IMG/VR virus record: IMGVR_UViG_3300047470_000445
Location: 1-21,881 of that record
Source of the DNA: a virus
Strand: one strand, 5' to 3'
DNA: 21,881 bases
Of this stretch, positions 1,223 through 19,215 are shown piece by piece. Position 1 is the stretch's first letter. Every line of letters starts with the position of its first letter. The position numbers and the translations under genes are program-made. The notes under the pieces were generated by a model. It was not told the DNA's origin. It searched no databases and was given only the letters and a program-made list of their open reading frames with translations.

Positions 1223-1270
1223 GCTGTCCGCGCCTCCTCCGCAGCCCTCAAAGGGTGAGCAGAGGAGGCG
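1223..1270 (+). promoter_or_regulatory. Composite late element, site A (box, core, hairpin over the RBS)
   Basis: The box GCTGTCCG (1223-1230) is followed after 14 bases by the core CCCTCAAAGGGTGA (1245-1258). The core is enclosed by a perfect 9-bp inverted repeat, CGCCTCCTC (1231-1239) and GAGGAGGCG (1262-1270). The 3' arm contains the Shine-Dalgarno GAGGAGG for the GTG at 1274. A full-length transcript could therefore hide this ribosome-binding site, while one starting near the core could not. Promoter function is inferred. Confidence 0.7.
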
Positions 1271-1273
1271 CAC

Positions 1274-3022
1274 GTGCTTGCCGAGGTCCCGGAAGTCCAC
1301 CTCGTCACCCACCCCGACCGCATGATCATGGTCGAGAAGGGCCTGTCTCCGAAGCGCGCCCGCGCCGCCGCGCTGGAGGCCGTGCGGCAGGCCCGGCGCC
1401 GGATGCCGAAGATGTCAGGCGCCGCCGCGCGCGGACTCCAGCCGCTGTACGGCAAGGGCTACTTCGGACTCTCCTGGTCCACCGAGGTCGTCTGGTACCA
1501 GGACCACGGCACCAAGCCGTTCACCATGAGGAGCCTGGCGGGAAAATCTCAACCTATGAACGAACCTGTGCTGACGCCGTACGGCTGGAGAGCCATGGGC
1601 GCGCTTGCCGTCGGAGATGCCGTGATCGGCTCGGACGGCAAGCCCACCGAGGTCACCGGCATCTTCCCCCAGGGCGTCCTGGAGTGCTTCCGCGTCACCT
1701 TCAGCGACGGCACGTCCGTCCGGTGCAGCGCAGACCATCTCTGGCAGGCCCGCCGGACCAAGAGCGGCGACGGACGACAGGAGGTCCGGACGACCGAGTA
1801 TCTCCGGGCGCGCCTGAAGGCCAGGTGGCGTGTCGACCTCGTCAAGCCGGTGCAGTTCGAGGGACTCAGCAGCCTGCCCGTGGACCCCTACCTCCTCGGC
1901 GTCCTCCTCGGTGACGGCAGCCTCACCGGGTCATCTCCCTGCCTGTCGGCGGACGGGAACGCCGTTGTCAACGAGGTGCGCGCCGTGCTGCCGGAGGGGC
2001 TGGAGATACGCAAGACCAGCGCCTCGAACTACTCGTGGTCGATCACGAGCGGCAGGCGCGGCACCCGCAGCAACCCCCTCAGCCAGGCCCTGCGGCAGCT
2101 CGGCGTGAACGGCCTCTACAGCCACGAGAAGTACATCCCGGCCGTCTACATGGCCGCGTCCGAGAACGACCGTCTCGGGCTCCTTCAGGGCCTCCTGGAC
2201 ACCGACGGGTCGTGCGACCGCAAGTACACGGGCGTCCGCTTCCACACCTGCAGCCCGGCCCTGGCCGACAACGTCGCCGACCTCGTGCGGGGACTCGGCG
2301 GCAGGGCCTACGTGCACAACGACGGCGGCCGGAAGGGAACGCGCCGCCAGATGTACACCGTCGGCATCGTGATGCCCCAGGACATGGTCCCCTTCCGAGC
2401 GCAGATGCCGAAGCGGCTGCACCGCTACCTCGCCTCCAGCACCCGACGCCCCGCCCTGGGCAAGACCATCGTCTCCATCGAGCCGGACGGCTTCGAGGAG
2501 ATGCAGTGCATCTCCGTGGCAGCCGAGGACCGCCTGTACGTCACCTCCGGCTACACCCTGACGCACAACACCATCCCGATGTGGATTGACGACCCGACCG
2601 GCCAGGAGCGGCGCGACAACCCGAAGGCCAAGACGCGCACCACCGAGTCCGGCAAGATCCAGGTCCTCATCTTCCGGCGCGCGGCGAAGATCGGTGAGCG
2701 GAAGAAGGTCTACCGCAAGGACCCGAAGACCGGCCTGAAGGTGCTCGTCTCCGACAGCCCGGCCCACTACCCGGGTGCGCCCGGCCGTATCGGCTGGCGT
2801 GAGTCCAAGCAGCCCTGGACGCGGCCCGGGAAGCGGCCGGGGGCCATCCACCCGGGCAACATCGGCGTCTGGTGGAGGCACCCGGGCCTGAAGCCCCGGA
2901 GTTTTTTGAACACGTCCATGACCCTGGCGGCGCAGAAGAACGGCCTGGTGGCCGAGCGGGTCTACGTCGCCGACCGGGGCTGGAGAAACAACGTCCGCCT
3001 GCACGGCGAGGAGTTCCGCTGA
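1274..3022 (+). CDS. Tail-completion (HK97 gp10-like) protein interrupted by an intein
   Basis: The 582-codon frame starts at GTG, preceded by GAGGAGG five bases away. Removing the intein (residues 92-432) leaves a host protein of 241 residues. The exteins rejoin as MRSLAGK plus TIPMWIDD. The basic helical start (RARAAALEAVRQARRR), the segment WYQDHGTKPFTM and the place two genes before the sheath fit the HK97 gp10-like neck and tail-completion proteins of tailed phages. That assignment comes from general pattern and position and is moderate. The mature protein would act at the head-tail junction or at the top of the tail. The stop overlaps the next ATG (TGATG), so the two genes are probably translationally coupled. 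Splicing must occur for the structural protein to be made intact. Confidence 0.72.
   Translation: MLAEVPEVHLVTHPDRMIMVEKGLSPKRARAAALEAVRQARRRMPKMSGAAARGLQPLYGKGYFGLSWSTEVVWYQDHGTKPFTMRSLAGKSQPMNEPVLTPYGWRAMGALAVGDAVIGSDGKPTEVTGIFPQGVLECFRVTFSDGTSVRCSADHLWQARRTKSGDGRQEVRTTEYLRARLKARWRVDLVKPVQFEGLSSLPVDPYLLGVLLGDGSLTGSSPCLSADGNAVVNEVRAVLPEGLEIRKTSASNYSWSITSGRRGTRSNPLSQALRQLGVNGLYSHEKYIPAVYMAASENDRLGLLQGLLDTDGSCDRKYTGVRFHTCSPALADNVADLVRGLGGRAYVHNDGGRKGTRRQMYTVGIVMPQDMVPFRAQMPKRLHRYLASSTRRPALGKTIVSIEPDGFEEMQCISVAAEDRLYVTSGYTLTHNTIPMWIDDPTGQERRDNPKAKTRTTESGKIQVLIFRRAAKIGERKKVYRKDPKTGLKVLVSDSPAHYPGAPGRIGWRESKQPWTRPGKRPGAIHPGNIGVWWRHPGLKPRSFLNTSMTLAAQKNGLVAERVYVADRGWRNNVRLHGEEFR
1547..2569 (+). other. 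LAGLIDADG (DOD) intein, 341 residues
   Basis: The intein starts at Ser92 (SQPMNEPVLTP), which keeps the usual spacing from residue 1 to the Val-Leu of block A. Block B is the segment VRCSADHLW, with the conserved His. Two LAGLIDADG-type motifs follow, LLGVLLGDGS and LLQGLLDTDGS, both with the catalytic acidic residue. Block F is RLYVTSGYTLTHN, ending in His-Asn, and Thr433 is the +1 nucleophile. All splicing blocks and both endonuclease motifs are intact by eye, so it should splice and could home into intein-free alleles. The upstream splice point at Ser is inferred from spacing. Confidence 0.92.
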
Positions 3023-3651
3023 TGTACATCACCCGGGTGAAGACCCTCGGTATCGAGGCGCTGCAGGCGGCGTTCGACGACCAGTACCCCGTAACGGAGT
3101 TCCGGGGGCTGCACTGCTCGCTGGAGTACCCGATCGAGAAGTCGTCGTTCCCGGAGGTCTGGGTGCGCTACAGCGACACCGGCCCGCTGCGAAGGGCCGG
3201 TGTCTCGCACGTCGAGGACACCGACGGGAACGACAGCCGTGTCGCGCCGTACACCCGCTTCCGGTTCTCGGGCTCCTGGGAGTTCGTCGTCGTCGCTCTG
3301 TCCAGCGTGGAGCGGGACCGGGTCTACGACGAGTTGGTGGGGACGATCGCCTGGTCCGGGTTCGACACGCTGCGCGGCCGGTTCCAGTCGTACCTGGCAA
3401 CCAACGACTTGATCGACCTCACCGTCCGTACGGACGAGATCGAGTCGACCGGTGAGTCGGCCGAGCCGGGCACACCGTGGGGCACCGATGAGGTGGTCTA
3501 CGAGCGGACCCTGGCCATCGACCTGATCGGCGACTTCACGCCAGACCCGGAGACCGGCATCATCGTCCCGCTCTCGAAGATCGTTGTCACGCCGACCGCT
3601 GACCTCACCCTCGACGACCTCAGCGACAGCGGCTTCGACTCCTGGCACTGA
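3022..3651 (+). CDS. Tail terminator or tail-completion protein (putative)
   Basis: This gene encodes 209 residues. The ATG overlaps the preceding TGA, and GAGGAG lies upstream in the end of the previous gene. The product is acidic and soluble with no membrane segment. I see no enzyme motif. It lies directly upstream of the sheath and downstream of a gp10-like gene, the usual place of the tail terminator or neck-to-tail joining protein in contractile phages. The role is therefore assigned by gene order, not by sequence. The downstream gap holds a cluster of CTACTA repeats and the start of the sheath transcription unit. Confidence 0.5.
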   Translation: MYITRVKTLGIEALQAAFDDQYPVTEFRGLHCSLEYPIEKSSFPEVWVRYSDTGPLRRAGVSHVEDTDGNDSRVAPYTRFRFSGSWEFVVVALSSVERDRVYDELVGTIAWSGFDTLRGRFQSYLATNDLIDLTVRTDEIESTGESAEPGTPWGTDEVVYERTLAIDLIGDFTPDPETGIIVPLSKIVVTPTADLTLDDLSDSGFDSWH

Positions 3652-3690
3652 ACTACTAGTGAGCTACTAATTCCTCCCAGATTAGTAGTT
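3651..3690. repeat. AT-rich cluster of inverted CTACTA/TAGTAG repeats
   Basis: Immediately after the stop codon at 3651, AACTACTA (3651-3658) can pair with TAGTAGTT (3683-3690). Alternatively CTACTAAT (3664-3671) can pair with ATTAGTAG (3681-3688). The two folds share the right arm and exclude each other. The patch is strikingly AT-rich for this genome. There is no T-run. It could be a terminator, an attenuator-like switch or an operator for the sheath promoter region. Confidence 0.5.
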
Positions 3691-3701
3691 CGCGCCGTCT
3701 C

Positions 3702-3749
3702 GCTGTCCGTCGGCCTGCTGCAACCCCCAAGGGGTGACAGCTGACCGAC
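3702..3749 (+). promoter_or_regulatory. Composite late element, site B (sheath gene)
   Basis: The box GCTGTCCG (3702-3709) is followed after 14 bases by the core CCCCCAAGGGGTGA (3724-3737). The core folds as ACCCC-CAA-GGGGT. GTCGGCCTGCTG (3709-3720) pairs with CAGCTGACCGAC (3738-3749) at 10 of 12 positions. Here the 3' arm ends before the likely ribosome-binding site GGTGGG, so the hairpin flanks it instead of covering it. Confidence 0.65.
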
Positions 3750-3765
3750 GCGACTGGTGGGTGGC

Positions 3766-5292
3766 ATGCCCGACATCTCCTCTGCGACGTACACGCCACC
3801 CGGCGTCTACGTCAGCGACGAATCGACTCCCACGGTCACCCCGCGCGGCGTGTCAACCACGACCGTCACGGTGATCGGCCCGGCCCTTGGCTACCAGACG
3901 ACCAGCGAGGTCGCCACCGTCTACTCCGGCTCGGGAACCGCGCTGAGCCAGCGCGGCGTGTACGTCACTGCCGTGACCGGGCCGCCCGCCATCGCGGCAC
4001 CTGTGGTCTCGACCCTGTCGGGCACCCTGCTGGTCTACGGCGAGGACTACACCTTCGTGGTGACCGCCGGTTCCGGCGGCGCGGCCACGGCGGTCACCTC
4101 GATCAAGCGCCTGTCGTCGAGCGGATCCGACCTGACGCTGCCCTCCCCGAAGGGCGTGAAGGACGGCGACCAGGTCCGCGTGACGTACGCGTTCACCAAC
4201 GCGACGTACTACGAGCCGACCGAGTTCGAGGACTACGACCAAATCGTATCCACGTACGGACAGGCCATGGTGACGACGTCGCCGACCAGCCCGACCGCGT
4301 CACAGGTCGCCTCCCCGCTGACCCTGGCGGCGAAGATCGCCCTGGAGAACGGGGCGGCCAGCGTGCTGTGCGTGGCCACGAACCCGGCCGCCGGTGACTT
4401 CCGGGTCCAGCTGCAGGCTGCGTACGCCAAGCTGGAGGCGAACTACCAGGCGCAGATCCTGGTGCCGCTCTTCGTGGACGGCACGTACAACACGCACACG
4501 CCGACCAACGTGGCGAACCTGCTGGCTGACGTCAAGAACCACTGCGAGGCGGCGGCGGCCGACGGCTACGGCCGGATGGCGTTCACCGGCCTGGCCACGA
4601 CGTACGACAACACGTCCGGCCACGACCAGTTGGCGCTGGCCCAGGGCAGCAAGCGGCTGATCCTGTGCTACCCGAACCGGCTGCTGGCCTTCAACTCGGC
4701 CGTGAACGCCTCCACGGAGATCGACGGCTTCTACCTGGGCGCTGCGATGGCCGGGCGGCTGGCTCGGAATGCGGTCGCGCGTGGGCTGACGAACCTGTCG
4801 CTGACGTCGTTCACCGGCCTGCCCGCGCAGATCGCGCAGGCCATGACCCGGACCTTCAAGAACAATCTCTCGAAGTCCGGCGTGAACGTTGCGGAGATCA
4901 ACCAGAACGGCCAGCTGGTCGCCCGGCACGGCGTGTCCACGAGCATGGCGTCGATCCTGACGCAGGAGATCTCGCTGACCCGGATCGGCGACGTCCTGCT
5001 GCAGATGATCCAGGTCGGCATGTCCAACGCCGGACTCATCGGTGAGCCGATTACGCCCGAGACCACGATCAACGTGAAGTCGGCGCTGATCGGCCTGCTG
5101 GAGCAGGCGGTCTCCGACAGCATCATCGTCTCCTACGCCAACGCGCAGGTGCGCCAGCAGGCGGTGGACCCGTCGGTGATCGAGGGGACGTTCAGCTACA
5201 AGCCGCCGATTCCGATGAATTACATCACGGTGAAATTCGCGGTCGACCTGACGACCGGCGACACCACGGACACGGGCGACGAGAACGCCTGA
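3766..5292 (+). CDS. Tail sheath protein
   Basis: The contractile sheath surrounds the tail tube and shortens during injection. The 508-residue product begins MPDISSATYTPPGVYVSDES, a start typical of sheath proteins, in which the N-terminal arm links neighbouring subunits. The C-terminal half, with AGRLARNAVARGLTNLSLTSF and the stretch VARHGVSTSMASILTQEISLTRIGDV, fits the conserved core, and the end SYKPPIPMNYITVKFAVDL fits the C-terminal arm. I chose the ATG at 3766, preceded by GGTGGGTGG. A GTG at 3757 in the same frame would add three residues but has no good ribosome-binding site. It has its own composite element upstream and two strong hairpins downstream, consistent with high expression as a separate unit. 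Confidence 0.93.
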   Translation: MPDISSATYTPPGVYVSDESTPTVTPRGVSTTTVTVIGPALGYQTTSEVATVYSGSGTALSQRGVYVTAVTGPPAIAAPVVSTLSGTLLVYGEDYTFVVTAGSGGAATAVTSIKRLSSSGSDLTLPSPKGVKDGDQVRVTYAFTNATYYEPTEFEDYDQIVSTYGQAMVTTSPTSPTASQVASPLTLAAKIALENGAASVLCVATNPAAGDFRVQLQAAYAKLEANYQAQILVPLFVDGTYNTHTPTNVANLLADVKNHCEAAAADGYGRMAFTGLATTYDNTSGHDQLALAQGSKRLILCYPNRLLAFNSAVNASTEIDGFYLGAAMAGRLARNAVARGLTNLSLTSFTGLPAQIAQAMTRTFKNNLSKSGVNVAEINQNGQLVARHGVSTSMASILTQEISLTRIGDVLLQMIQVGMSNAGLIGEPITPETTINVKSALIGLLEQAVSDSIIVSYANAQVRQQAVDPSVIEGTFSYKPPIPMNYITVKFAVDLTTGDTTDTGDENA

Positions 5293-5296
5293 GCCC

Positions 5297-5330
5297 GCGC
5301 GGCAGGCCTGTGACGGGCCGTCTGCCGCGC
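5297..5330 (+). terminator. First hairpin after the sheath gene
   Basis: GCGCGGCAG (5297-5305) and CTGCCGCGC (5322-5330) form a perfect 9-bp GC stem right after the sheath stop codon. Only TTCT follows, so it is not a classic T-run terminator. In high-GC actinomycetes such stems often end or stabilise transcripts. Confidence 0.6.
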
Positions 5331-5334
5331 TTCT

Positions 5335-5370
5335 AGAGGACCCCCGGTGTGAGGGCGCCGGGGGTCCTCT
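5335..5370 (+). terminator. Second, stronger hairpin after the sheath gene
   Basis: AGAGGACCCCCGG (5335-5347) and CCGGGGGTCCTCT (5358-5370) form a perfect 13-bp stem with a 10-base loop. No T-run follows. It directly abuts the box of site C at 5371, so it separates the sheath and tube transcription units. Confidence 0.75.
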
Positions 5371-5406
5371 GCTGTCCGTAGCTGCCCTGCCCGCCGTAGG
5401 GGGTGA
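5371..5406 (+). promoter_or_regulatory. Composite late element, site C (tube gene), without hairpin arms
   Basis: The box GCTGTCCG (5371-5378) is perfect, and 14 bases later the core reads GCCGTAGGGGGTGA (5393-5406), matching 10 of 14 consensus positions. I find no arms that pair across the core and cover the start region. Box and core therefore keep their spacing without the hairpin, which argues that they are the primary signal, probably a promoter. Confidence 0.55.
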
Positions 5407-5430
5407 GACCTATGGATGGGGTGGTGAGCA

Positions 5431-5934
5431 ATGCCTGCAGGCAAGGTCCGCGTCACTGGCTCCGGCTACAGCACGTTCGTGTACGCCGGTAAGCCGATCG
5501 CGTTCCTCAACAGCGTCGAGGATTCCGGGCAGCGTGCCTGGTCGGACAAGGGGCAGGCGTACGCGTTCATCCAGCCCCTGGGGTCCCGTACGCCGGTTGA
5601 GATCGCGACGTCCCGCGTCCTGGGCGGCGGCACGCTGCAGCTGACGATCCAGGAGCTGTGGAACCAGGCCATCTGGGAGCAGATGGCCGGTATGTCCGGA
5701 ACGAGCAACATCGTCGAGATCTTCGACCGGCTGGCCGCGAGCCCGAACTACGTCACCGCGCAGACGATCATCAAGCCGCCCGGCACGGAGTCCAACCCGT
5801 CCAAGTGGCGCGGCAAGATCTACCACAACGTGACGATCGTCGACATCGCCGACGGCGACACCCTGACGGTCGGCGGCCTGGACGTCGCCAAGCCCGTGGT
5901 CTGCGCCTACACCCACACCACCCGACTGCGCTGA
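5431..5934 (+). CDS. Tail tube protein
   Basis: This 167-residue protein directly follows the sheath and precedes the tail chaperones, the standard position of the contractile tail tube. It starts MPAGKVRVTGSGYSTFVYAG and contains beta-rich stretches such as GGGTLQLTIQELW and TLTVGGLDVAKPVVCAYTH. The length fits gp19-like tubes. It would assemble into hexameric rings stacked around the tape measure, forming the DNA channel. The ATG at 5431 follows a G-rich stretch (GGATGGGGTGGTGAG) that can serve as ribosome-binding site. The segment before it carries composite element C. I did not see any enzymatic motif. Confidence 0.82.
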   Translation: MPAGKVRVTGSGYSTFVYAGKPIAFLNSVEDSGQRAWSDKGQAYAFIQPLGSRTPVEIATSRVLGGGTLQLTIQELWNQAIWEQMAGMSGTSNIVEIFDRLAASPNYVTAQTIIKPPGTESNPSKWRGKIYHNVTIVDIADGDTLTVGGLDVAKPVVCAYTHTTRLR

Positions 5935-5947
5935 CCAGGAGCGAGCG

Positions 5948-6463
5948 ATGACGGACACCTACGGCACCTTCGACCCGGCCGCGCGGCCGGGTCGTAAGGC
6001 CGCCACGCCGGAGGCCAAGCCGACCCTGAAGGCCGAGGACGGCACGGAGCTGCCCAGCTTCGACGAGCGCCACTCCGAGGCCTTCGAGGGGCTCGCCTAC
6101 CTGGGCTCGCTGACCACGAGCTTCAGCTGGCTCGGGCACGAGTTCGTGATCCGCACGCTGGGGGTGGACGAGCAGCTCGCGGTCGCCCAGGTCACCTCCA
6201 AGTACAAGGACGGCGGCGAGCAACTCGCCTACGTCACGGCCGTGGTGGCCATGTGCGTGGTGACGCTCGACGGCGAGGAGCTGCCCACCCCGATCGGGGA
6301 GGACCAGAAGCTGGCCGAGTGGGCGCACCTGCGGTTCGGGTTCGTCAAGGCGAACTGGTTCCAGCCGACGATCAACGAGGTCTTCCAGCGCTACCTGGAG
6401 CTGGAGGACAAGGTCTCGCAGGTCATCGATGCCATGGGAAAAGCCTTCGCCCCGGCCGCATAG
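5948..6463 (+). CDS. Tail assembly chaperone, short form (G-like)
   Basis: This gene encodes 171 residues, starting at ATG after CAGGAGCGAG, 13 bases past the tube stop. Tail assembly chaperones coat the tape measure and guide tube polymerisation and are absent from the finished virion. Gene order (tube, chaperones, tape measure) and the programmed frameshift at its end identify it. It ends GKAFAPAA shortly after the slippery site. The N-terminal 40 residues are hydrophilic and probably flexible. The core has WLGHEFVIRTLGVDEQLAV and WAHLRFGFVKANWFQPTINEVFQRY, both compatible with a helical chaperone. Confidence 0.85.
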   Translation: MTDTYGTFDPAARPGRKAATPEAKPTLKAEDGTELPSFDERHSEAFEGLAYLGSLTTSFSWLGHEFVIRTLGVDEQLAVAQVTSKYKDGGEQLAYVTAVVAMCVVTLDGEELPTPIGEDQKLAEWAHLRFGFVKANWFQPTINEVFQRYLELEDKVSQVIDAMGKAFAPAA

Positions 6464-6882
6464 ACCCGTGGCTGGAGCGCCATCTGCGGATCGTCGAGCG
6501 GCGGGGGCTGCTGTCGGGGCGGCACCTGTCGCGGGTGCAGCAGTTCGGCCTTGAGCTTCTCATCCTGGCCGACAACTGGAAGGTGGCCGCTGACGACGAC
6601 CGGGCGTTCGAGGAGCAGCTGAGGTTCGCGCTGGTGGCTGCGGGCGTGGACGCGACCGACCTGTGGCCAAAGGACGCGGCCGACGTCCCGGAGAGCGAGG
6701 ACGAGGACGTCGACTACGACTACTCCGCCGTGAACTGGCAGCAGGGGTCGACCGACGACTGGGACCAGATGCAGAAGGCGCTCGCTACCTCGCGGGTGCA
6801 GGTGTCCGGGGGCCGTTCGGAGCCGGTTGATGCGCCGCCGGTGCCGGACATGGGTGACGAGTTCGATCGGGAGTGGCAGTAA
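5948..6882 (+). CDS. Tail assembly chaperone, long form made by -1 frameshift (GT-like)
   Basis: After codon 165 (AAA at 6440-6442) a -1 slip moves ribosomes into the frame that reads SLRPGRIDPWLERHLRIVER and continues to TAA at 6880-6882. The fusion has about 311 residues: 165 from the first frame and 146 from the second. The extension contains a helical block around RVQQFGLELLILADNW and an acidic stretch ESEDEDVDYDY. In lambda the equivalent GT extension binds the soluble tail protein while G binds the tape measure. By analogy the long form is made at a low fixed ratio. The downstream frame has no convincing start of its own near the junction, which supports expression by frameshift. The TAA overlaps the tape-measure ATG (TAATG). 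Confidence 0.85.
6436..6442 (+). other. -1 ribosomal slippery heptamer G_GGA_AAA
   Basis: The heptamer GGGAAAA lies in the correct phase (G GGA AAA) for simultaneous -1 slippage of both tRNAs, 18 bases before the TAG of the short chaperone. The -1 frame is exactly the one that stays open to 6882. I see no strong stimulatory hairpin just downstream; CCGCA (6456-6460) and TGCGG (6485-6489) could form only a weak stem. Confidence 0.9.
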
Positions 6883-9014
6883 TGGCGACACCTACGCCGC
6901 CCCCGGGCGGCACTCCTCCGGGCGGCCTGACGGGAGCCCTGCAGGGCCTGGTGATGCAGCTCCAGGCGCTGATGCACCAGAACCAGACGCTGCAGAACCT
7001 GCCGTCGAGCACGGCCACGGCCCTGCGGCAGGCGCGGCAGAACATCCTGAACCCGACGGCGCTGATGGGCGGGCAGGTTCCGCCGCCGGTCGCGCCGAAC
7101 GCGCAGTGGCTGCAGGCGACGGCCGCGCAGTTCCTCAGCCAGGTGGTACTCAACCAGCCCCAGCGCCGCCCCGCTCCGGGCTCCGGCGGTGGTGGCCCGA
7201 CGCCGCCCGGCCCGACGCCGCCGACTCCTACGCCCACGCCGCCGGTCCCGGCTCCGTACATGTACCCGTACATGAACCCGTACGGGCACCCGCACATGGG
7301 CTACACCGGCCCCATGCCGGGCTACGGCGGCCCCCTGGTCGCGCCGATGCAGACAGGCAGCACTGGCAGCCGCTCCTCGGGCATCGGCTCCTGGACGAAG
7401 TCGATGCTGCCCCGCGTCGGCGCGGCCATCGGCGGCCCCTGGGGCGCCGTGGCGGGCGCGGCCATCGGTGCCGCCACTGACATTCCGGCCGAGGTCCGCA
7501 GCCAGCGCGACAAAAACGCGTACTACCAGTCGATCGAGGGCGGCTCGAACTTCGACGGGTTCGCCGAGCGGGCCCACGAGGAGGCATACCGCTGGACGAC
7601 GTTCGGCGTGCTCTCCTCCGACGAGGCCCGCCGGGCGTTCAAGGGCGTCACCAAACTCGGCTACAACAGCAAGGTGGAGGGCGGCATCGGCCGCCAGCAG
7701 GCGCTCAACTTCATCTACCACGGCAAGACCCGGCGCGGTGAGACCGTGGACGAGTCCCTGCAGCAGCTGCAGGTCAACTCGAAGAACGCCCTGGGCAGCC
7801 TCAACGACCTCAACGACGCCCTGAACTCGGTCAGCGACAGCGCGGGCAAGGCCGGGGTCAACGCACAGCAGGCGCGCGCCGAGTTCACCCAGCTGATGGA
7901 CACGGCGATCAAGAGTGGCTACGGCTCCGCCTCGACGGACGTGGCGCGCCAGGAGCAGGACCTGAAGACCAGCTACGGCCGGTCGTTCCAGGACATCGAC
8001 GCCTCGGGCCGCCTGTCGCAGTCGCACGCCTACATGGCGGCGTCCCTCGCCGGGATCTCCGTCTCGCAGTACCTCACGGGCGGGGCCGAGGTAAAGGCGG
8101 GCGCCGACCAGGTCCTGGACCGGGCCACGGCGAAGGCCGTGCTGCGGCCGGGCGTCGAGGACTGGATCAAGGCGCACATCAAGGCGGCCGGGGGGAAGGT
8201 CGACGAGGAGGAGGCGACCCAGCTCGGCCAGCAGATGCTCCAGCAGTTCTACCCGAACGACCCGTACGCCCTCTCGGCCGTCGTGGCGTCGCTGTCGGGA
8301 TACTCGAACCTGGGCAGCGACCCGGTCAAGGCCGCCACGTGGCTCGTGCAGCAGTACAACGGCAAGGGTGCACTCGCCACGGTCAAGGCGGACGAGAAGA
8401 AGACCAGCAAGTCGAACAAGGTCACGGGTGGCCACACCAGCATCAGCTACCCGGACCAGGAGAAGCACGGCGGCTTCCTCGGGTTCGGCAGCAGCAACTC
8501 CAAGGCCTGGGACGCCTACTCGGACTGGGTGCACGAGAAGGGCCACGGCAAGCTCCAGGACGACCCGGTCATCGACAACCTGCTGAACAAGATCAAAGGC
8601 GACGACAAGACGAAGGTCGCTGTCACGACGAAGAACGGCAAGCGGGTGGTGTCGCTGGCCGACGCGATCAAGAACCACCGCAACGAGCTGGCCAGCGGCA
8701 AGGCCGTCATCGTCGAGGGCGACCAGGCGGGCAAGTCCGTCGCCGACATCCTCGGCAAGGGCGGCGTCGACCCGCTGCGCAACTTCTCCAAGGAGGCCAA
8801 GAAGACCGACAAGTCCGGGGAGTCGTACGCCAAGTGGGAGAAGGGCGGCAGCACCAAGGAGCGGAAGGCCCGACAGGACTTTCAGCTCACGCTCACGCCG
8901 GAGGCCCGGCGCCTGCTGACCCTGATGAACACCACCGGGGTCGCCGGATCCTCCGCGACGTCCACTCCGCCGCTGAGCCCGTACCCCTCGAACCCCAGCT
9001 ACGGCGGGGAGTAG
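6882..9014 (+). CDS. Tape measure protein
   Basis: The 710-residue protein follows the frameshifted chaperones, as tape measures do. It sets tail length, lies inside the tube and leaves first during injection. The N-terminal 90 residues are rich in Gln, Leu and Ala. Residues about 100-150 are very rich in Pro, Gly and Tyr (PTPPTPTPTPP, then MYPYMNPYGHPHMGY). A Gly/Ala hydrophobic stretch follows at about 174-197 (AAIGGPWGAVAGAAIGAA), possibly the membrane-active part. The rest is helical and charged, with many Lys residues near the C terminus. At about 1.5 angstrom per residue it would suit a tail of roughly 100 nm, which is an inference. The ATG at 6882 overlaps the previous TAA; an in-frame GTG at 6873 is less likely. 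Confidence 0.78.
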   Translation: MATPTPPPGGTPPGGLTGALQGLVMQLQALMHQNQTLQNLPSSTATALRQARQNILNPTALMGGQVPPPVAPNAQWLQATAAQFLSQVVLNQPQRRPAPGSGGGGPTPPGPTPPTPTPTPPVPAPYMYPYMNPYGHPHMGYTGPMPGYGGPLVAPMQTGSTGSRSSGIGSWTKSMLPRVGAAIGGPWGAVAGAAIGAATDIPAEVRSQRDKNAYYQSIEGGSNFDGFAERAHEEAYRWTTFGVLSSDEARRAFKGVTKLGYNSKVEGGIGRQQALNFIYHGKTRRGETVDESLQQLQVNSKNALGSLNDLNDALNSVSDSAGKAGVNAQQARAEFTQLMDTAIKSGYGSASTDVARQEQDLKTSYGRSFQDIDASGRLSQSHAYMAASLAGISVSQYLTGGAEVKAGADQVLDRATAKAVLRPGVEDWIKAHIKAAGGKVDEEEATQLGQQMLQQFYPNDPYALSAVVASLSGYSNLGSDPVKAATWLVQQYNGKGALATVKADEKKTSKSNKVTGGHTSISYPDQEKHGGFLGFGSSNSKAWDAYSDWVHEKGHGKLQDDPVIDNLLNKIKGDDKTKVAVTTKNGKRVVSLADAIKNHRNELASGKAVIVEGDQAGKSVADILGKGGVDPLRNFSKEAKKTDKSGESYAKWEKGGSTKERKARQDFQLTLTPEARRLLTLMNTTGVAGSSATSTPPLSPYPSNPSYGGE

Positions 9015-9017
9015 GCC

Positions 9018-9686
9018 ATGGCTCTGGCATCCCTGGGGTTCGCCAAGGGCCCCCGGATCACCTTCCGGATCAACCCCTCCTCGATCGACTGGGGCTTCGA
9101 GATCCACACCTCGGTCACCCCAACCGTCGGCGGCAGGGTCGTGCAGATCACCGGCGCGACCCTGCGGGACGTCACCATCACCGGCTACCTCGGCGAGATG
9201 CGCAACGCCGGGCCGTCCCCCGACGACAACAGGGACCACGCCGGGGCCAGCTGGCGCCTGCACGAGGCGTTCATCACCCAGTGCCGGGCCATCATGGAGC
9301 ACCAGTCCAGGGACTCCACCACGCCCGGCAAGATGATGCACGAACCCGCCGTCTTCAACTACCCGGCGCACGGCTGGCGGTGGAACGTCTACCTCACCGA
9401 GGTCGCCGACACCGACGGCCAGGCCTCGATCGAGCACCGATCCGGGAAGTACTCCCACGGCTACAAGCTCACCCTGTTCGTCGTGCAGGGCGGCTCCGAT
9501 TCGCTGGTCACGGCAGGCACCTCCAAGGACGCGATCGACGCCGCGCAGGAAAAGGCCATCGCCTCCTACATCGCCCGAATCAGCGAGGGCATCGGCTGGC
9601 GCCAGAACGAGTACAACGGGCCGCTCAACGATGGCACCGACACCGCCGCCAAGGACACCGACAAGGGCCAGAAGGAGGACAAGTAG
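9018..9686 (+). CDS. Tail-tip or baseplate protein following the tape measure
   Basis: The product has 222 residues. It starts MALASLGFAKGPRITFRINP, with a beta-rich first half (VGGRVVQITGATLRDVTITGYLGE) and a Lys- and Asp-rich C-terminal tail. In contractile phages the gene after the tape measure often encodes a baseplate or tube-end protein that joins the tube to the hub (LysM-type gp53/X families). I cannot see a clear LysM repeat, so I assign it only by position and general fold. It begins three bases after the tape-measure stop, and its TAG overlaps the next GTG (TAGTG), so it belongs to the same transcription unit. Confidence 0.55.
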   Translation: MALASLGFAKGPRITFRINPSSIDWGFEIHTSVTPTVGGRVVQITGATLRDVTITGYLGEMRNAGPSPDDNRDHAGASWRLHEAFITQCRAIMEHQSRDSTTPGKMMHEPAVFNYPAHGWRWNVYLTEVADTDGQASIEHRSGKYSHGYKLTLFVVQGGSDSLVTAGTSKDAIDAAQEKAIASYIARISEGIGWRQNEYNGPLNDGTDTAAKDTDKGQKEDK

Positions 9687-10100: not shown

Positions 10101-10103
10101 CCG

Positions 10104-10787: not shown

Positions 10788-10829
10788 TGTCGGCAGCCTG
10801 ACCATCTGCCCCAAGGGGCGGAGGTGGTC
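10786..10829 (+). promoter_or_regulatory. Composite late element, site D (hub gene)
   Basis: The box GATGTCGG (10786-10793) overlaps the previous stop codon and matches 6 of 8 consensus bases. The core at the standard 14-base spacing is GCCCCAAGGGGCGG (10808-10821). GACCATCT (10800-10807) pairs with AGGTGGTC (10822-10829) over 8 positions, one of them G-U. The 3' arm covers part of the GGAGG ribosome-binding site for the GTG at 10832. Confidence 0.55.
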
Positions 10830-10831
10830 TC

Positions 10832-13321: not shown

Positions 13322-13554
13322 TGATGGGTCCGGGGAACGCGGCCACGCACGGGATCGGCTGGACGATCAAGCAGGTCAAAGTCCAGTCCCTCGTCCCGGC
13401 CAAGAAGCTCGCCCTGTGCGTCGACACCGAGGGGCAGATCCTGGAGGTCACCACGGCCCTCCACCGAACCGGCATCACGCCGGTGGTCGGCCAGACCTGG
13501 CTTGTCGACCGCACGTACGGGGCGTGGAGCTTCGCCGCCTGGTGGGACCTGTGA
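13321..13554 (+). CDS. Small baseplate-associated protein, 77 residues
   Basis: The ATG overlaps the hub stop (TGATG), with a second ATG at the next codon. The product (KVQSLVPAKKLALCVDTEG, then VVGQTWLVDRTYGAWSFAAW) looks like a small beta barrel of OB type. That would suit a gpV/gp5-like spike or hub accessory piece, but the sequence is too short to be sure. It is the last + strand gene before the minus-strand cassette, and a bidirectional terminator follows it within five bases. Confidence 0.6.
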   Translation: MMGPGNAATHGIGWTIKQVKVQSLVPAKKLALCVDTEGQILEVTTALHRTGITPVVGQTWLVDRTYGAWSFAAWWDL

Positions 13555-13558
13555 CATG

Positions 13559-13590
13559 AAAAAAGTGAGACCCGTGGGTCTCACTTTTTT
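13559..13590. terminator. Bidirectional intrinsic terminator, palindrome copy 1
   Basis: AAAAAAGTGAGACCC (13559-13573) and GGGTCTCACTTTTTT (13576-13590) form a perfect 15-bp stem around GT. On both strands a GC stem is followed by six T residues. It can therefore stop rightward transcripts from the hub unit and leftward transcripts from the parAB-like pair. Confidence 0.93.
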
Positions 13591-13599
13591 CGATCTCAG

Positions 13600-13621
13600 A
13601 CTGAGACCCATGGGTCTCAGT
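13600..13621. terminator. Palindrome copy 2, probable + strand terminator
   Basis: CTGAGACCCA (13601-13610) and TGGGTCTCAG (13611-13620) make a perfect 20-bp palindrome, extended by A/T at the ends. TTTT follows on the + strand. It shares TGAGACCC and GGGTCTCA with copies 1 and 3. TCTCAG (13594-13599) could pair with CTGAGA (13601-13606) as an alternative fold. It lies just past the ParB-like stop codon. Confidence 0.8.
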
Positions 13622-13627
13622 TTTGGG

Positions 13628-14584
13628 CTACCCGGCGATCTCGGCAGCAGCCTCCCAGGCCCGCCTCAGCTCCTCAACGTACTGCTTCACGGCCTCGGGG
13701 TCCTTCTCCTTCGCGTCCCGGAGCACCTCCAGGGGCAGGATGCGGTTCGTGCGCCGGGCCTTGGAGAGCTGGTCCACGACGCTCGGCCCCGCCTCTCCGC
13801 CGGGCTCGATCTCGATGACCTCGGTGTCCCTGCCCAGCATGAGGACCCTGCGGGCCGCGACAGCTCCGGCCGAGGTGATCTTGCCCATCCGCTTCATCTC
13901 GGCGAACTGCTCCCGGAGGAGCTTCTGGCGCTCCGGAGAAACATCCGGCTCACCGTCCTCCGTGAGAGGGATCTCGCCCTTCTCGTCCACGATCGTGGAG
14001 TACAGCTCGCGGATGGTGCGCTCGTTCAGCGCGCCATCGATCATGTCGTGGAGGATCCTGTGGACGGGGACCGCGCGGCGGAGGCGGTAGATGTCCTGCG
14101 TGGAGAGCCCGAGCGGCTCGCCGAACTTCGCGACGGACTTGAACCCCGCATCCTTGAGCCGGGTGCCCTGGGTGACCCACCACAGGTACTCACCGGCCGA
14201 CTTGACGTACCCCAGCTGCAGCTGTCCGAGGCCGTTCTCCAGCCCCCGGTTGGCCCGCGCGATGCCGCGCCGGGCGGCGCCCACAGCCTCCAAGATGTCG
14301 GCGTCCGGGGAGGGCTTGATGAACTCGAAGGGGTTCCCCTCCTCGGACGCCTTCATGACGGCATCCGGGGAGGGGACATGCACGACCGGTTCCGCCTGGT
14401 GCGGGACCTCCGGTTCGACCACGGCCGGGGCGCTCGCGGCGGCCGTGGCCGCCTCGGTGAGCGCGTCGTCGTCCTCTCCCCGGCGAGCGTTGGTGCTGGT
14501 GGCCCGAGAGGCGGCCAGCGCCGACTCGGCCCGCTTCTCAGCGGCGGTCTTCTTCGGCTTCGCTGCAACAGCTACGCGGGCCAT
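13628..14584 (-). CDS. ParB-like DNA-binding partner of the ParA-like ATPase
   Basis: This gene encodes 318 residues on the minus strand; the ATG overlaps the stop of the ATPase gene (TGATG), as in partition operons. The first 60 residues are Ala-rich, charged and probably disordered. Residues about 100-175 are helical and contain a helix-turn-helix-like segment at about 149-172 (SVAKFGEPLGLSTQDIYRLR). The C-terminal half has several charged helices. I do not see the GERRxR box of CTP-binding ParB proteins, so it is not a canonical ParB. Its pairing with a ParA makes a centromere-binding or repressor role the best inference. The stop is followed by palindromes that may be terminators or its binding sites. 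Confidence 0.68.
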   Translation of the reverse strand: MARVAVAAKPKKTAAEKRAESALAASRATSTNARRGEDDDALTEAATAAASAPAVVEPEVPHQAEPVVHVPSPDAVMKASEEGNPFEFIKPSPDADILEAVGAARRGIARANRGLENGLGQLQLGYVKSAGEYLWWVTQGTRLKDAGFKSVAKFGEPLGLSTQDIYRLRRAVPVHRILHDMIDGALNERTIRELYSTIVDEKGEIPLTEDGEPDVSPERQKLLREQFAEMKRMGKITSAGAVAARRVLMLGRDTEVIEIEPGGEAGPSVVDQLSKARRTNRILPLEVLRDAKEKDPEAVKQYVEELRRAWEAAAEIAG

Positions 14585-15357
14585 CAGGCGACCTGTCCCT
14601 TCATGAGGTGGCGGAACAGCAGGCCGAACTCTTCGAGGTGGGGGCGCTTCGGGGTGGTGTCCCAGGAGCGCGGGTAGTCCGGGGAGCCGCTGATCTGGAA
14701 CTCCTTCGGCGCGACAGCCGCCTTTACCCGAGAGAAGTCCTCGCTCTGAACGATGGCCTCCAGGACGGGACGCTGCTCGTCGGCGAGCGTGTTGTTGCCG
14801 GAGCACTTCACCAGGAAGACCGTGACGGTGAGGTCCGGGTTGGCCTTGGCTCCCTTGGTGGCCTGGCGGATCGACGCCGTGAGTCGAGAGATCTCGAAGC
14901 CGGACGGGGCGACGGGGAGGATCACCATGTTGGCGACCTTGCACATCTCCCAGTACGCCTCCTTGCCCGCGCCGCCGATGTCGACGATGACGACCTGGTA
15001 GGACTCCTTGAGTGCCTCGATCACGTCGTCGAGGTCCGGGCCGTTTTCGTCCTTGGGGTCGTAGTTGACCAGGTCGAAGGGAACCTCTTCGTCGCGGCTC
15101 TCCCTGATCTGGTACCAGGCGTCGACCGTCTGGGAGTTGTCGTCGGTGTCGACCACCGCGACCTTCAGGCCGAGGACGATGGCCAGGTACAGCGCCAGGA
15201 AGATCGCGCTGGTCGTCTTTCCGGTGCCCCCCTTGAGGACACCGATCCCGATGACGAGGCAGCCGTTCTCGTCGAGCCACGCGAAGATCTCATCGCGAGA
15301 CGCGGCCTGCGCCATCAACTGCTTGTGCTGCTGTCTGGGGAGCGTAGAAGCCTTCAC
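14584..15357 (-). CDS. ParA-family ATPase
   Basis: ParA/MinD-type ATPases dimerise on DNA with ATP and move cargo bound by a partner protein. The 257-residue product has the deviant Walker A KGGTGKTT (residues 42-49) with the signature Lys, the A' motif VVDTDDNSQ (68-76) and Walker B VVIVDIGG (122-129). There is only a short N-terminal extension and no helix-turn-helix in it, so it looks like a small plasmid- or phage-type ParA. I chose the GTG at 15357, with AAGGGA upstream; an in-frame GTG at 15408 lacks a ribosome-binding site. It runs against all surrounding late genes and would keep an episomal prophage stable, which is an inference. A missing partner would argue against this, but a ParB-like gene follows. 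Confidence 0.92.
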   Translation of the reverse strand: MKASTLPRQQHKQLMAQAASRDEIFAWLDENGCLVIGIGVLKGGTGKTTSAIFLALYLAIVLGLKVAVVDTDDNSQTVDAWYQIRESRDEEVPFDLVNYDPKDENGPDLDDVIEALKESYQVVIVDIGGAGKEAYWEMCKVANMVILPVAPSGFEISRLTASIRQATKGAKANPDLTVTVFLVKCSGNNTLADEQRPVLEAIVQSEDFSRVKAAVAPKEFQISGSPDYPRSWDTTPKRPHLEEFGLLFRHLMKGQVA

Positions 15358-15392
15358 TCCGGTCCCTTCATAGGCGGGTTGTCGCCCCATAT

Positions 15393-15403
15393 CTTGCCGC
15401 AAG
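15393..15403. promoter_or_regulatory. Possible operator in the divergent region
   Basis: CTTGC-C-GCAAG is a short perfect palindrome between the divergent ParA-like and wedge genes. It could bind a regulator of the ParA-like promoter, but at 11 bases it may be chance. I could not identify convincing promoter hexamers on the minus strand. Confidence 0.25.
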
Positions 15404-15448
15404 GTCACGAGTGCGGTGTGCAGGAGCCGTGTTTCGGCCCTGTTTTCG

Positions 15449-15467
15449 AGCGAAAGGGGTGAGGAGG
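15449..15467 (+). promoter_or_regulatory. Degenerate late element, site E (wedge gene)
   Basis: The core region reads AGCGAAAGGGGTGA (15449-15462), matching the second half of the consensus, and runs into GAGGAGG, the ribosome-binding site. No good box occurs at the fixed 14-base spacing, and no arms enclose the core. TTTCG (15443-15447 region) can pair with CGAAA (15451-15455). Confidence 0.4.
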
Positions 15468-15473
15468 TGGCTC

Positions 15474-15902
15474 ATGAAGACGCTCGCGCTCGTCGGCGGA
15501 GACCTGGTGCTCGGTGACGGCGGCTACCGCACGCTCACCGGCGCGGCCCGGATCCGCCAGGACCTCTCGCTCGCGCTCGCCGAGCCGTACGGCCAGGACA
15601 CCTACCACCCGCAGTTCGGGTCGGTGCTGGCCTCGCACATCGGTGAGCCGCTGACGCCCGAGCTGGAGCTGCTGGTGCGTTCCGAGGTGGTCCGGGTGGT
15701 GCAGCAGTACGTGGACGGCCAGCAGGCCCAGATTGCGGCTGACGCCCTGTCCGGCTCCCGGAGCCGGTTCAGCTTCCAGGACGTGGTGCAGTCGGTGCAG
15801 TCCATCAGCACGGACATCCAGTACGACACGATCAAGGTGACGATCACGCTGAAGACGCAGTCCGGCGGAACGATCCGGGTCCTGCGAACGGTGAGCACCT
15901 GA
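15474..15902 (+). CDS. Baseplate wedge protein, gp25/W-like
   Basis: The 142-residue product has the gp25-type core: YHPQFGSVLASHIGEPLTPE followed by a helix and the beta-rich end YDTIKVTITLKTQSGGTIRV. In T4 gp25 and P2 W this protein links the sheath and the wedge of the baseplate. I chose the ATG at 15474, which follows GAGGAGG by six bases; an in-frame GTG at 15411 has no ribosome-binding site. Its stop codon lies inside palindrome copy 3. It is the only baseplate gene between the ParAB-like cassette and J, so the cassette splits the hub and wedge parts of the baseplate cluster. Confidence 0.88.
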   Translation: MKTLALVGGDLVLGDGGYRTLTGAARIRQDLSLALAEPYGQDTYHPQFGSVLASHIGEPLTPELELLVRSEVVRVVQQYVDGQQAQIAADALSGSRSRFSFQDVVQSVQSISTDIQYDTIKVTITLKTQSGGTIRVLRTVST

Positions 15903-15922
15903 GACCCGTGGGTCTCACTTTT
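15899..15922 (+). terminator. Palindrome copy 3 after the wedge gene
   Basis: TGAGACCC (15900-15907) and GGGTCTCA (15910-15917) pair around GT, followed by CTTTT on the + strand. The wedge stop codon TGA is the first part of the palindrome. The inner 18 bases equal copy 1. It probably ends the wedge transcript, and the next composite element starts one base after its T-run. Confidence 0.8.
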
Positions 15923-15969
15923 GCTGTGCGGTGCCTTCCTCTCGTCCTCAAGGGGTGACGAGAGGGAGG
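15923..15969 (+). promoter_or_regulatory. Composite late element, site F (J gene)
   Basis: The box GCTGTGCG (15923-15930) is followed after 14 bases by the core TCCTCAAGGGGTGA (15945-15958). CCTTCCTCTCGTC (15934-15946) pairs with GACGAGAGGGAGG (15957-15969) over 13 positions, with one T-G pair. The 3' arm includes the purine-rich ribosome-binding site for the ATG at 15977. This is the longest hairpin in the family. Confidence 0.7.
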
Positions 15970-15976
15970 GCGCCGC

Positions 15977-17827
15977 ATGGGTGTTTCCAGGGACGACATC
16001 GTCTCGCAGATGCGGGATGCGCTGCTGGTCTCCGACCCGGAGCTGGACACGTCCATCGGTACCCCGGTGCGGAAGATCCTGGACGCGGTGGCCGGGTCGC
16101 TGGCGGACGCGTACGTGGAGAACCACCTGCTGTCGTACGCCTACGACATCGACAGCAAGACCGACGCCGATCTGGACTCGTTCTGCCAGCTGTTCGGCAT
16201 CGCGCGGATCGCGGCCCGGCGCGCGGTCGGCACGGTGACGTTCTCCCGGACCGGTGACCTGACCCCGACCGTGTTCATCCCGGTCGGCACGGAGATCGCG
16301 TCCTCGTCGGACTCCTCGACCGTGGTCACCACGGTGGTCGGCGGCACGATGATGCCAGGCTCCTCCTCCGTCACCGTGCCGGTCCAGGCTGTGACGGCCG
16401 GGCCGGAGGGCAACCTGGGCGCAGGCATGGCGACCACGATTATCTCGCCGATCGCGGGCGTCAACACCGTCACGAACACGGCGGCCCTGACCGGCGCCAT
16501 GTCCCGGGAGGCCGACTCGGAGCTGCGGACCCGCTGGAAGTCCACGGTGTTCCGGTCGCTGGCCGGGACGGAGCAGATGTACCGGGGCGTGGCGCTGGAT
16601 GACGCCGACTGCTACGCCGTCTCGGTCGTCGGCTCCTCGCGGACCCGGTCGGAGATCCTGCAGGTGCCGGTCAGCGGCAACACGGTCTGCCAGATCACGG
16701 ACGCCCGCTACATCTACACCTCGCCGGTGCAGGTGACGAAGTCCGACGGCACGCCGCTGATCAAGGACTACGACTACACCTGGATCCCGTCGAATCCGCC
16801 CGCCATCTCCGGGCTGTCGGCGTCGTTCCCGGCGGCCGGTGAGCTGCTCACGGTGGAGTACCAGTACCTGCCGGTGGTGAGCCGGAACGATCCAGCGAAC
16901 AACATCACGAACCGGGTGGACCTTTTCGTCGGCGGCACCCGGGCACAGTCGGCGCAGACGGCGCTGGTGTTCAAGCAGTCGAAGAGGTTCCAGACCGTCT
17001 CGACGGTGGACCTGTACACCGGCGCGTGGTTGCGGGCGGACCAGACCCGGCCGGAGGCCAACAACGTCTTCCTGCCTCTGCCCTTCGGGCCGATCGTGAC
17101 TGTGCCGACCACGCTGTCGGTCGCGGGGACGACGTACGGTCTGGCGTCCACGGCGCACCCGCTGGGCACCGTGGCCAGCGGGGTGACGTACGCGTACACC
17201 ATCGTCCACGAGGACACGGTGGACGGCTGGACGCCGACGTCGCGGTTCGGCCTGGAGTGGCACCGCACGTACCTGCCTGCCGACAACTCGCCGGTCTCGG
17301 TGGGCGGTAACGGCGACTACACCTACAACGAGGTGCCGTCCTCGGTCCAGGACGCGGTCAACCGGTGGAGGCTGACCGGCATCGACGCCAAGGTGCACCA
17401 GGCCAAGCAGCGCTGGCTCCGGTTCACGCTGGGCGTGATGTACACGGTGTCGTCCAGTGGGTCGGTCGACTCGGTCCAGGATGCCATCCGGTCCGCCTTG
17501 AGCGACTACCTGAACCGGATGGACTTCAACAGCAACGTCCAGATCAGCGACGTCCTCGCGGTCATCCACCAGGTGCCCGGCGTGGACAACTGCCGCCTGC
17601 TCAACGGCGCGGATGTGACCGGCTACAGCTCGGCCAACCCGAACGCGTCGATCGTGGGTGTCCAGCAGATCGCCCCGAACTCGGCGCCGAACTCGGCCGC
17701 GCTGTCCTCGTACGTCGATGCGCCGACCGGCCGGGCCAAGGACATCTACTTCCGCGACGACGAACTGCCCGTGCTCGGCGGCGTGGTCTTCAAGACCCTC
17801 GCCCGGAACTCCTTCGGGGTGCTGTGA
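15977..17827 (+). CDS. Baseplate J-like protein
   Basis: The product has 616 residues. The beginning (SQMRDALLVSDPELDTSIGT, then KILDAVAGSLADAYVENHLL) and the downstream motif DLDSFCQLFGIARIAARRAVGTVTFSR are typical of baseplate J proteins, equivalent to T4 gp6, which form the dimers that ring the baseplate. The middle, with TVFIPVGTEIASSSDSSTVV and SREADSELRTRWKSTVFRSL, is the family core. The C-terminal third has QDAIRSALSDYLNRMDFNSN. The length is larger than P2 J, as is usual in actinophages. The ATG follows GAGGGAGGG and composite element F. The stop overlaps the next gene (TGATG). Confidence 0.88.
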   Translation: MGVSRDDIVSQMRDALLVSDPELDTSIGTPVRKILDAVAGSLADAYVENHLLSYAYDIDSKTDADLDSFCQLFGIARIAARRAVGTVTFSRTGDLTPTVFIPVGTEIASSSDSSTVVTTVVGGTMMPGSSSVTVPVQAVTAGPEGNLGAGMATTIISPIAGVNTVTNTAALTGAMSREADSELRTRWKSTVFRSLAGTEQMYRGVALDDADCYAVSVVGSSRTRSEILQVPVSGNTVCQITDARYIYTSPVQVTKSDGTPLIKDYDYTWIPSNPPAISGLSASFPAAGELLTVEYQYLPVVSRNDPANNITNRVDLFVGGTRAQSAQTALVFKQSKRFQTVSTVDLYTGAWLRADQTRPEANNVFLPLPFGPIVTVPTTLSVAGTTYGLASTAHPLGTVASGVTYAYTIVHEDTVDGWTPTSRFGLEWHRTYLPADNSPVSVGGNGDYTYNEVPSSVQDAVNRWRLTGIDAKVHQAKQRWLRFTLGVMYTVSSSGSVDSVQDAIRSALSDYLNRMDFNSNVQISDVLAVIHQVPGVDNCRLLNGADVTGYSSANPNASIVGVQQIAPNSAPNSAALSSYVDAPTGRAKDIYFRDDELPVLGGVVFKTLARNSFGVL

Positions 17828-19161
17828 TGGCAGACGACTTCCTCCACCAGGGCAGCGGCACCTTCGGGACCGCCGTCATCCCCGGCGGCCTGATTCCGCT
17901 CCAGGCCGACGTCACCGTGCCGCAGTCCACCCAGCTGGCCAGCGGTACCGGCATGCTCGTCGCGGACACGGCTGTCGCCGAGCAGCTGCGCCACTTCCCC
18001 GAGGAGGTCTACGACCTCCGACCCACCAGCCATCTGGTCCGGCTGATGCAGGCCCTCCTCGGCGACTCCGGCGTCGGCCAGCTCCGCAAGCGGCTGATGG
18101 TCTCCCAGCTGGAGAGCCTGTCGGTCTCGGGGGCGAGGTTTTTCGATCTCGACCGGTTCTACGGTGCGATCTTCAACGCCGCGCGGAACGCCGACGAGGT
18201 CCTGCCGATCAACCCGATGGAGACGGCGACTGCCACGGCCGCCGAGTGGGACTCGATTGAGGCCGCCGACGCCTCCTTCCGGGACCGGATGGCCGCCCTG
18301 GCCAAGGCCATCGCGATGGGCGGCACCGTGCCGGGCCTGCAGGCTGCGGCCGAGGCCATCACGGGCGTCGAGGTCGACGTCTACGAGTCCTGGGCGCTGT
18401 TGGATGCCGCCGGGGACACGGACGAGGTCGCGCACGACTGGGAGTGGATGGAGGCCGGGATCTGGAGCGACTACGAGGGCGAGATCTGGGGTGCTCTGGA
18501 GGGCACGCCGTTCTCCGGCCGCTCGGGCTCCCTGACCCGCTCCGAGGTCCTGGTGCAGGTCAACCGCGACTACCCGACGACCCCGGCTGGCCGGGCGCAG
18601 CAGGCCAGCGACGAGTCGGCGCTGGTGCGTGTCCTTGAGCGGATCAAGCCCGCGCACACGCTTCTCACCGTTGACACGCAAGGTACGTCGGCCCTGGTGT
18701 CGCGGGGTATCGCGGGGGTGCGCTCGGACAGTGAGAACTGGGAGATCGTCCCGCAGGTCACCCCGAGCCAGGTGCCGACCAGCACCAACCCGTACCCGCT
18801 GTCGGCGATCCAGCAGCAGGACGGGGTGGACCCGAGTTCGGCCCGGGTGCTGCCCCGGCCGCCGCTGACCACCCGGCTCGGGGACGAGTGGTCGTACGGC
18901 CAGCAGGTCCCGACCTGCCGCTCGTACTCGGTCAGCCCTGACGACCCGGCCGACTTCACCGCACCTGGACCGGTCCCGGACGCCGACCTTGCCTCGGTTG
19001 ACCAGACGGTTGTCTGGAGGGACGGCACCTCGACCATCTACCGGGCCTCCCTCGGCGCGCTGGACCCGCTGCTGAGCCACGCGGCGCGCGCCGGAGGCGA
19101 CGGGGTGCTCATCGCGAACCCGTACTCCGGTGACCGCCGTACCGTCCTGACGGTCGACTGA
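17827..19161 (+). CDS. Baseplate or tail protein (tail protein I type, putative)
   Basis: The product has 444 residues, starting at the ATG that overlaps the J stop; the open frame further upstream is only a shadow of J. In P2-like clusters the gene after J is I, whose product helps attach fibres to the baseplate. The conserved-looking part is residues about 60-200 (LRPTSHLVRLMQALLGDSGV, then DLDRFYGAIFNAARNADEVL). The C-terminal 150 residues are rich in Pro, Ser and Thr and look extended. I do not see an enzyme motif. The function is inferred from gene order. A composite element follows at 19163. Confidence 0.6.
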   Translation: MADDFLHQGSGTFGTAVIPGGLIPLQADVTVPQSTQLASGTGMLVADTAVAEQLRHFPEEVYDLRPTSHLVRLMQALLGDSGVGQLRKRLMVSQLESLSVSGARFFDLDRFYGAIFNAARNADEVLPINPMETATATAAEWDSIEAADASFRDRMAALAKAIAMGGTVPGLQAAAEAITGVEVDVYESWALLDAAGDTDEVAHDWEWMEAGIWSDYEGEIWGALEGTPFSGRSGSLTRSEVLVQVNRDYPTTPAGRAQQASDESALVRVLERIKPAHTLLTVDTQGTSALVSRGIAGVRSDSENWEIVPQVTPSQVPTSTNPYPLSAIQQQDGVDPSSARVLPRPPLTTRLGDEWSYGQQVPTCRSYSVSPDDPADFTAPGPVPDADLASVDQTVVWRDGTSTIYRASLGALDPLLSHAARAGGDGVLIANPYSGDRRTVLTVD

Positions 19162-19162
19162 C

Positions 19163-19211
19163 CCTGTCCGGTCCTCCTCATCCGCCCTCAAGGGGTGAGC
19201 TGAGGAGGACC
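19163..19211 (+). promoter_or_regulatory. Composite late element, site G (hydrolase-fibre gene)
   Basis: The box CCTGTCCG (19163-19170) is followed after 14 bases by the core CCCTCAAGGGGTGA (19185-19198), which is the consensus. GGTCCTCCTCA (19170-19180) and TGAGGAGGACC (19201-19211) form a perfect 11-bp stem around it. The 3' arm includes GAGGAGG, the ribosome-binding site for the GTG at 19216. Confidence 0.75.
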
Positions 19212-19215
19212 ACCG

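Follow-up and report, generated by a model that had tools for sequence, protein, structure and literature searches.

The two-part element that recurs ahead of genes in the window (the whole stretch of DNA analysed, an IMG/VR record of 21,881 bases) probably represents a class of phage-specific late promoters, and the gap between its two parts is not inert. In a subset of genes, the gap would serve as an RNA arm hiding the Shine-Dalgarno sequence (SD) whenever transcripts read through from upstream. We give this full explanation a probability of about 0.6. A literature search retrieved no description of the motif or of the phage genes of pRLB1-9.1, a related plasmid. The motif apparently constitutes a new sequence class of phage late promoter, itself a known kind of element, and late gene control in these Streptomyces phage-plasmids is undescribed as far as literature searches reach.

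An earlier note on this DNA had reported six sites, each made of an 8-base box, 14 further bases and a 14-base core. Direct inspection of the sequence confirmed box, 14 bases and core at all six positions and added a seventh, weaker site that had been missed. The sites are as follows.

1223 to 1258, + strand: site 1 (box 1223-1230, gap 1231-1244, core 1245-1258), preceding the GTG at 1274 of an intein-containing gene
3702 to 3737, + strand: site 2 (box 3702-3709, gap 3710-3723, core 3724-3737), preceding the tail sheath gene, ATG at 3766
5371 to 5406, + strand: site 3 (box 5371-5378, gap 5379-5392, core 5393-5406), preceding a tail tube-like gene, ATG at 5431
10786 to 10821, + strand: site 4, divergent (box 10786-10793, gap 10794-10807, core 10808-10821), preceding an NlpC/P60 hub-like gene, GTG at 10832
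15923 to 15958, + strand: site 5 (box 15923-15930, gap 15931-15944, core 15945-15958), preceding the baseplate J gene, ATG at 15977
19163 to 19198, + strand: site 6 (box 19163-19170, gap 19171-19184, core 19185-19198), preceding a poly-gamma-glutamate hydrolase/tail gene, GTG at 19216
15428 to 15462, + strand: site 7, weaker (box CGTGTTTC 15428-15435, 13-base gap, core AGCGAAAGGGGTGA 15449-15462), preceding a gp25-like baseplate gene, ATG at 15474

Four of the six originally reported sites lay within three mismatches of the consensus, as compared with none in 100 dinucleotide shuffles. The tube site (5371) and the hub site (10786) depart from the consensus at 4 and 6, respectively, of the 22 specified bases, and both are supported by orthologous sites that relatives carry ahead of the corresponding gene (for the hub, for instance, CGTGTCTC...GCCCCAAGGGGCGG). 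Site 7, whose core ends 11 bases short of its ATG, scored under the scan threshold in the window and is retained on the basis of scoring orthologs of the gp25-like gene in relatives.

We trained a weight matrix on gap-14 seeds of the first contigs and applied it to 21 contigs, a check that the earlier note had suggested. The box-gap-core arrangement recurred ahead of gene starts in the relatives, where 34 gene families account for 154 distinct sites. Although the training seeds had a gap of 14, box and core each received a score of their own, independent of the gap, for all gaps between 8 and 20 bases. The gap of the pairs found ahead of gene starts was 14 bases in 114 cases, 15 in 22 and 13 in 15 (counts that include close relatives), making 151 of 153, with two elsewhere in the 8-20 range. 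The spacing, claimed to be the same at all sites, is therefore near-constant (14 in 114 of 153) but not absolute, and 17 families contain orthologous sites whose spacing is one base longer or shorter. Similarly, the 8-base box and the 14-base core are both present, but strong conservation, as judged from the information content, is concentrated in the CTGT of the box and in CAAGGGGTGA, the last ten bases of the core. A palindromic pair (G005 81479, minus strand, and G002 13178; 'fam 24') turned out to be a false positive and was excluded from the pairing, information, position, accessibility and spacing analyses, so that 33 of the 34 families entered the pairing tests. Among contigs with a less similar J protein, the motif persists in G016 and G017 (45-50% identity), which have 5 and 4 sites, respectively, with GAAGGGGTG in the core, and the motif matches of G018 (44% identity) were near noise. 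In the gap of most G016 and G017 sites there is an additional TGAG, located a few bases 5' of the core and absent from the closer group.

The J protein of the window is 94% identical to one encoded on pRLB1-9.1, a circular plasmid of 154,158 bases from Streptomyces sp. RLB1-9, and 81-82% identical to those on contigs of Streptomyces sp. MH60 and A0642. The host is a soil Streptomyces and the replicon is a contractile-tailed phage-plasmid of about 155 kb, like pRLB1-9.1 and its relatives. The window and pRLB1-9.1, taken together, carry sheath, tube, baseplate, portal and major capsid genes alongside ParA and ParB-like genes. We call the group phage-plasmids because of this co-occurrence, the name reflecting gene content. 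Named phages encoding related versions of the sheath and J proteins were distant, with at most 31% identity among the matches listed. Two other loci of pRLB1-9.1 may be mentioned: positions 139588-143064 encode a 1158-aa protein with a head maturation protease family match near its N-terminus and weak matches to ParB-like families in its middle, and positions 69862-71032 (minus strand) carry an annotated ATP-grasp-modified RiPP precursor (tgmA) together with its ATP-grasp protein.

The sites are specific to the phage and are located mainly among its structural genes. A search of the A0642 host assembly (8.2 Mb) for CTGT-N21-CAAGGGGTGA, allowing one mismatch, gave five matches, every one of them on the phage contig. 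On pRLB1-9.1, 18 of the 20 sites were inside the structural arc (P 4e-9), which comprises 55 of the 186 genes by a hand count from the annotation. The genes preceded by sites include those for the portal, the maturation protease, the tube, the hub and J, and it is from these functions that we infer their late expression. Not all of the genes preceded by a site are necessarily late, the dCTP deaminase gene being an example, and this counts against a late class.

The earlier note had also described the 14 gap bases as unconserved. They nevertheless hold information: the gap is complementary to the downstream ribosome-binding region. The hairpins found at four of the sites, and the terminator-like structure next to one of them, are listed below.

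1230 to 1271, + strand: site 1 hairpin, 5' arm 1230-1239 pairing with 1262-1271, which includes the SD GAGGAGG; fold z -4.4; family significant for pairing
10800 to 10829, + strand: site 4 hairpin, GACCATC 10800-10806 pairing with GGTGGTC 10823-10829; fold z -2.6; family not significant
15924 to 15980, + strand: site 5 hairpin, a long stem over the SD and the start codon; fold z -7.7; family significant
19170 to 19211, + strand: site 6 hairpin, GGTCCTCCTCA 19170-19180 pairing with TGAGGAGGACC 19201-19211 (SD); fold z -3.4; family significant
15900 to 15922, + strand: terminator-like hairpin and T-run abutting the box of site 5

The leaders of sites 2 and 3 had fold z values of -1.9 (with a stem not significant as a family) and -1.1. 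For RNA started at the core, the values ranged from -0.1 to +1.3 over the four window sites for which they were computed.

Across the 33 families, which are not fully independent, the complementarity of the gap to its own leader exceeded that of gaps taken from other families (KS p 4.5e-4). Applied to windows just 5' of the box, the same cross-family test indicated no excess (p 0.18 and 0.22). When the arm was slid along the leader, the mean duplex energy went from about -9 kcal/mol upstream to -14 to -16 kcal/mol in the gap, with its peak between box and core. Individually, 6 of the 33 families were under 0.05 and 8 under 0.1. Strong gap complementarity concerns about a fifth to a third of the families. 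Pairing was strong in the families of J and of the genes at 19216 and 1274, and absent in those of gp25 and dCTP deaminase. The unpaired fraction of the SD was 0.289 with the true gap, as compared with 0.355 with shuffled gaps (p 1.6e-5) and 0.357 with foreign gaps (p 0.0014). The shuffled-gap control is the fairer test of accessibility; the SD was also less accessible in whole RNA than in core-started RNA, a difference that is partly trivial, since a longer RNA pairs more.

In the mechanism that we propose, CTGT would be the upstream, -35-like part of the promoter and CAAGGGGTGA the downstream, -10-like part, and RNA polymerase steered by a phage factor would start in the core or a few bases past it. 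The product would be a short leader carrying the ribosome-binding site. With such a start, the gap arm would be missing from the late RNA and present in RNA reading through from upstream, in which, for a subset of genes, it would fold onto the ribosome-binding site and hide the SD. The core-started RNA, devoid of the 5' arm, would be translated. Within the window, this hairpin step is clearest for the 1274, J and 19216 genes. The suggestion of late promoters is well supported by the sequence, through a spacing that tolerates one base more or less, the coding-strand placement before gene starts, the concentration in the structural arc and the lack of matches on the host chromosome, late timing and 5' ends being what we infer from them. 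The other suggestion of the earlier note, a conserved RNA element, stands in part, in that the gap is the 5' arm of an SD-hiding hairpin, but in a minority of families only. The two are compatible if the promoter sits inside the hairpin.

The evidence also bears on simpler explanations. The sites could be late promoters and nothing else, the complementarity between gap and SD being a by-product, for example, of pyrimidine-rich gaps facing purine-rich SDs. The gap is indeed 46% C, most families are not individually significant for pairing, and covariation within the J alignment was not significant, the sequences being too alike. Yet the cross-family and shuffled-gap controls keep the composition and the excess persists, which makes a by-product rather unlikely in our view. 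Conversely, box and core might be bound as RNA, in a conserved element that serves translation or RNA processing in transcripts reading through from a distant promoter. The strong folds at several sites and the pairing excess would agree with this, but the motif is kept in families devoid of a stem (gp25, dCTP deaminase), so that an RNA hairpin alone would not explain it. Furthermore, a spacing held to within one base over a gap of unconserved sequence, even where there is no stem, fits a two-part promoter and is hard to reconcile with an RNA element. The terminator-like hairpin directly 5' of the J site is another argument against read-through, and its T-run, which abuts the J box, counts in favor of a promoter. 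An Rfam search of the window yielded no match at or above the gathering score (just two sub-threshold microRNA matches). An element acting purely as RNA is therefore quite improbable.

Still less probable is that the sites bind a phage DNA-binding regulator acting on promoters elsewhere. They are repeated, oriented, associated with starts and phage-specific, as such sites would be, but the asymmetric two-part motif, its spacing and its promoter-like distance from the gene argue otherwise, as does the lack of a TTGACA/TATAAT-like host sigma-70-type promoter, the one type scanned for, in positions 1-20000 of the window. A point against late promoters of the kind that we favor is the GGGG-rich core, which resembles no known -10 element. 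A more far-reaching form of the mechanism would be a genome-wide double lock, in which the gap doubles as an anti-Shine-Dalgarno arm fitted to each gene, so that only transcripts made by the late system are translated, with a split, sigma-region-4-like phage factor bringing host RNA polymerase to the promoters. This extension is tentative and we regard it as doubtful.

We searched the relatives for a factor that could read the putative promoters. No sigma region 2 (Sigma70_r2) and no gene for a multisubunit RpoB-like polymerase were found in the relatives searched, and no T7-like single-subunit RNA polymerase (PF00940) in four full-length relatives, the T7 positive control being matched. A 130-residue protein, one half of which is sigma-region-4-like, is conserved in every long relative tested, where its gene adjoins a DUF7236 gene. 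Its predicted structure (mean pLDDT 78) was nearest to sigma region 4 domains, with matches (Foldseek E no better than 0.02, Z at most 7.3) that possibly reflect just a common arrangement. Because it is also present in G018, which is devoid of the motif, we regard this protein as just a candidate, alongside a WhiB-family gene. The region-4-like gene (51744-52136 on pRLB1-9.1) and the DUF7236 gene (the pair spanning 51744-52426) remain neighbors in each of the long relatives tested, G018 among them.

The closest parallel that we found is in phage T4, where the late promoter of gene e lies inside an SD-hiding hairpin and the late RNA is made without the 5' arm; genes soc, 49 and I-TevI are likewise arranged (PMC3014915). 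As in T4, the SD here is predicted to be hidden in the long RNA and the putative late promoter is placed such that late RNA would lose the 5' arm. By computation, and in a subset of families, the SD was paired in the read-through RNA and less so in the promoter-started RNA, as for gene e. T4 shows this at a few genes, and its late promoter, which gp55 reads, is single-part, whereas the arrangement here concerns many genes and a two-part GC-rich motif known from sequence. The sigma-like domains 2 and 4 of T4 are separate proteins, gp55 and gp33 (PMC2988020). If the hairpins act as proposed, the gene e arrangement would have arisen in an unrelated GC-rich phage and be used there at several genes. 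Phage 7-11 also has a two-part phage-specific motif ahead of late genes, GTAAtg-(16)-aCTA, with mapped starts (PMC8948821). Its sequence is unrelated to that of the present motif, and it is read by a known phage sigma factor, whereas no region-2 sigma factor was found here. The SAS of Cluster K mycobacteriophages, 13-bp GGGATAGGAGCCC-like sequences located 3-7 bp ahead of the start in the non-structural half of the genome (PMC3203893), and the related ESAS resemble the present sites as repeated, oriented actinophage elements just ahead of start codons, some with inverted repeats. We rejected an identity with SAS/ESAS, as both motif and distance differ: the sites described here have two parts, lie farther from the start and precede mainly structural genes. 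The arms of ESAS share a consensus, with no support for RNA pairing, whereas the arms here vary from gene to gene and pair. The proposal is directly testable, since the motif is defined, the start region is predicted, each genome has about twenty sites and strains carrying the replicon have been sequenced.

The surroundings of the J site vary among relatives. In L089 and L095 a different hairpin occupies the place of the terminator-like hairpin 5' of J, and in L082, L096 and L105 the element is absent and J overlaps the upstream stop codon. The cassette therefore appears to come and go. The palindrome GAGACCC[GA]TGGGTCTC occurs three times (13567, 13603 and 15901) on the two sides of the ParA pair of the window; the copy at 15901 forms the terminator-like hairpin, and the palindrome may be a terminator or a partition site. 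The pair itself, a ParA-like gene and an unnamed neighbor (13628-15357, minus strand), lies inside the tail module, and the same pair is found in pRLB1-9.1. Finally, the gene at 1274-3022 is apparently interrupted by an intein that has a LAGLIDADG endonuclease domain; its product has 582 aa versus 241 aa in relatives, and its PHROG matches are intein-bearing terminases and primases.
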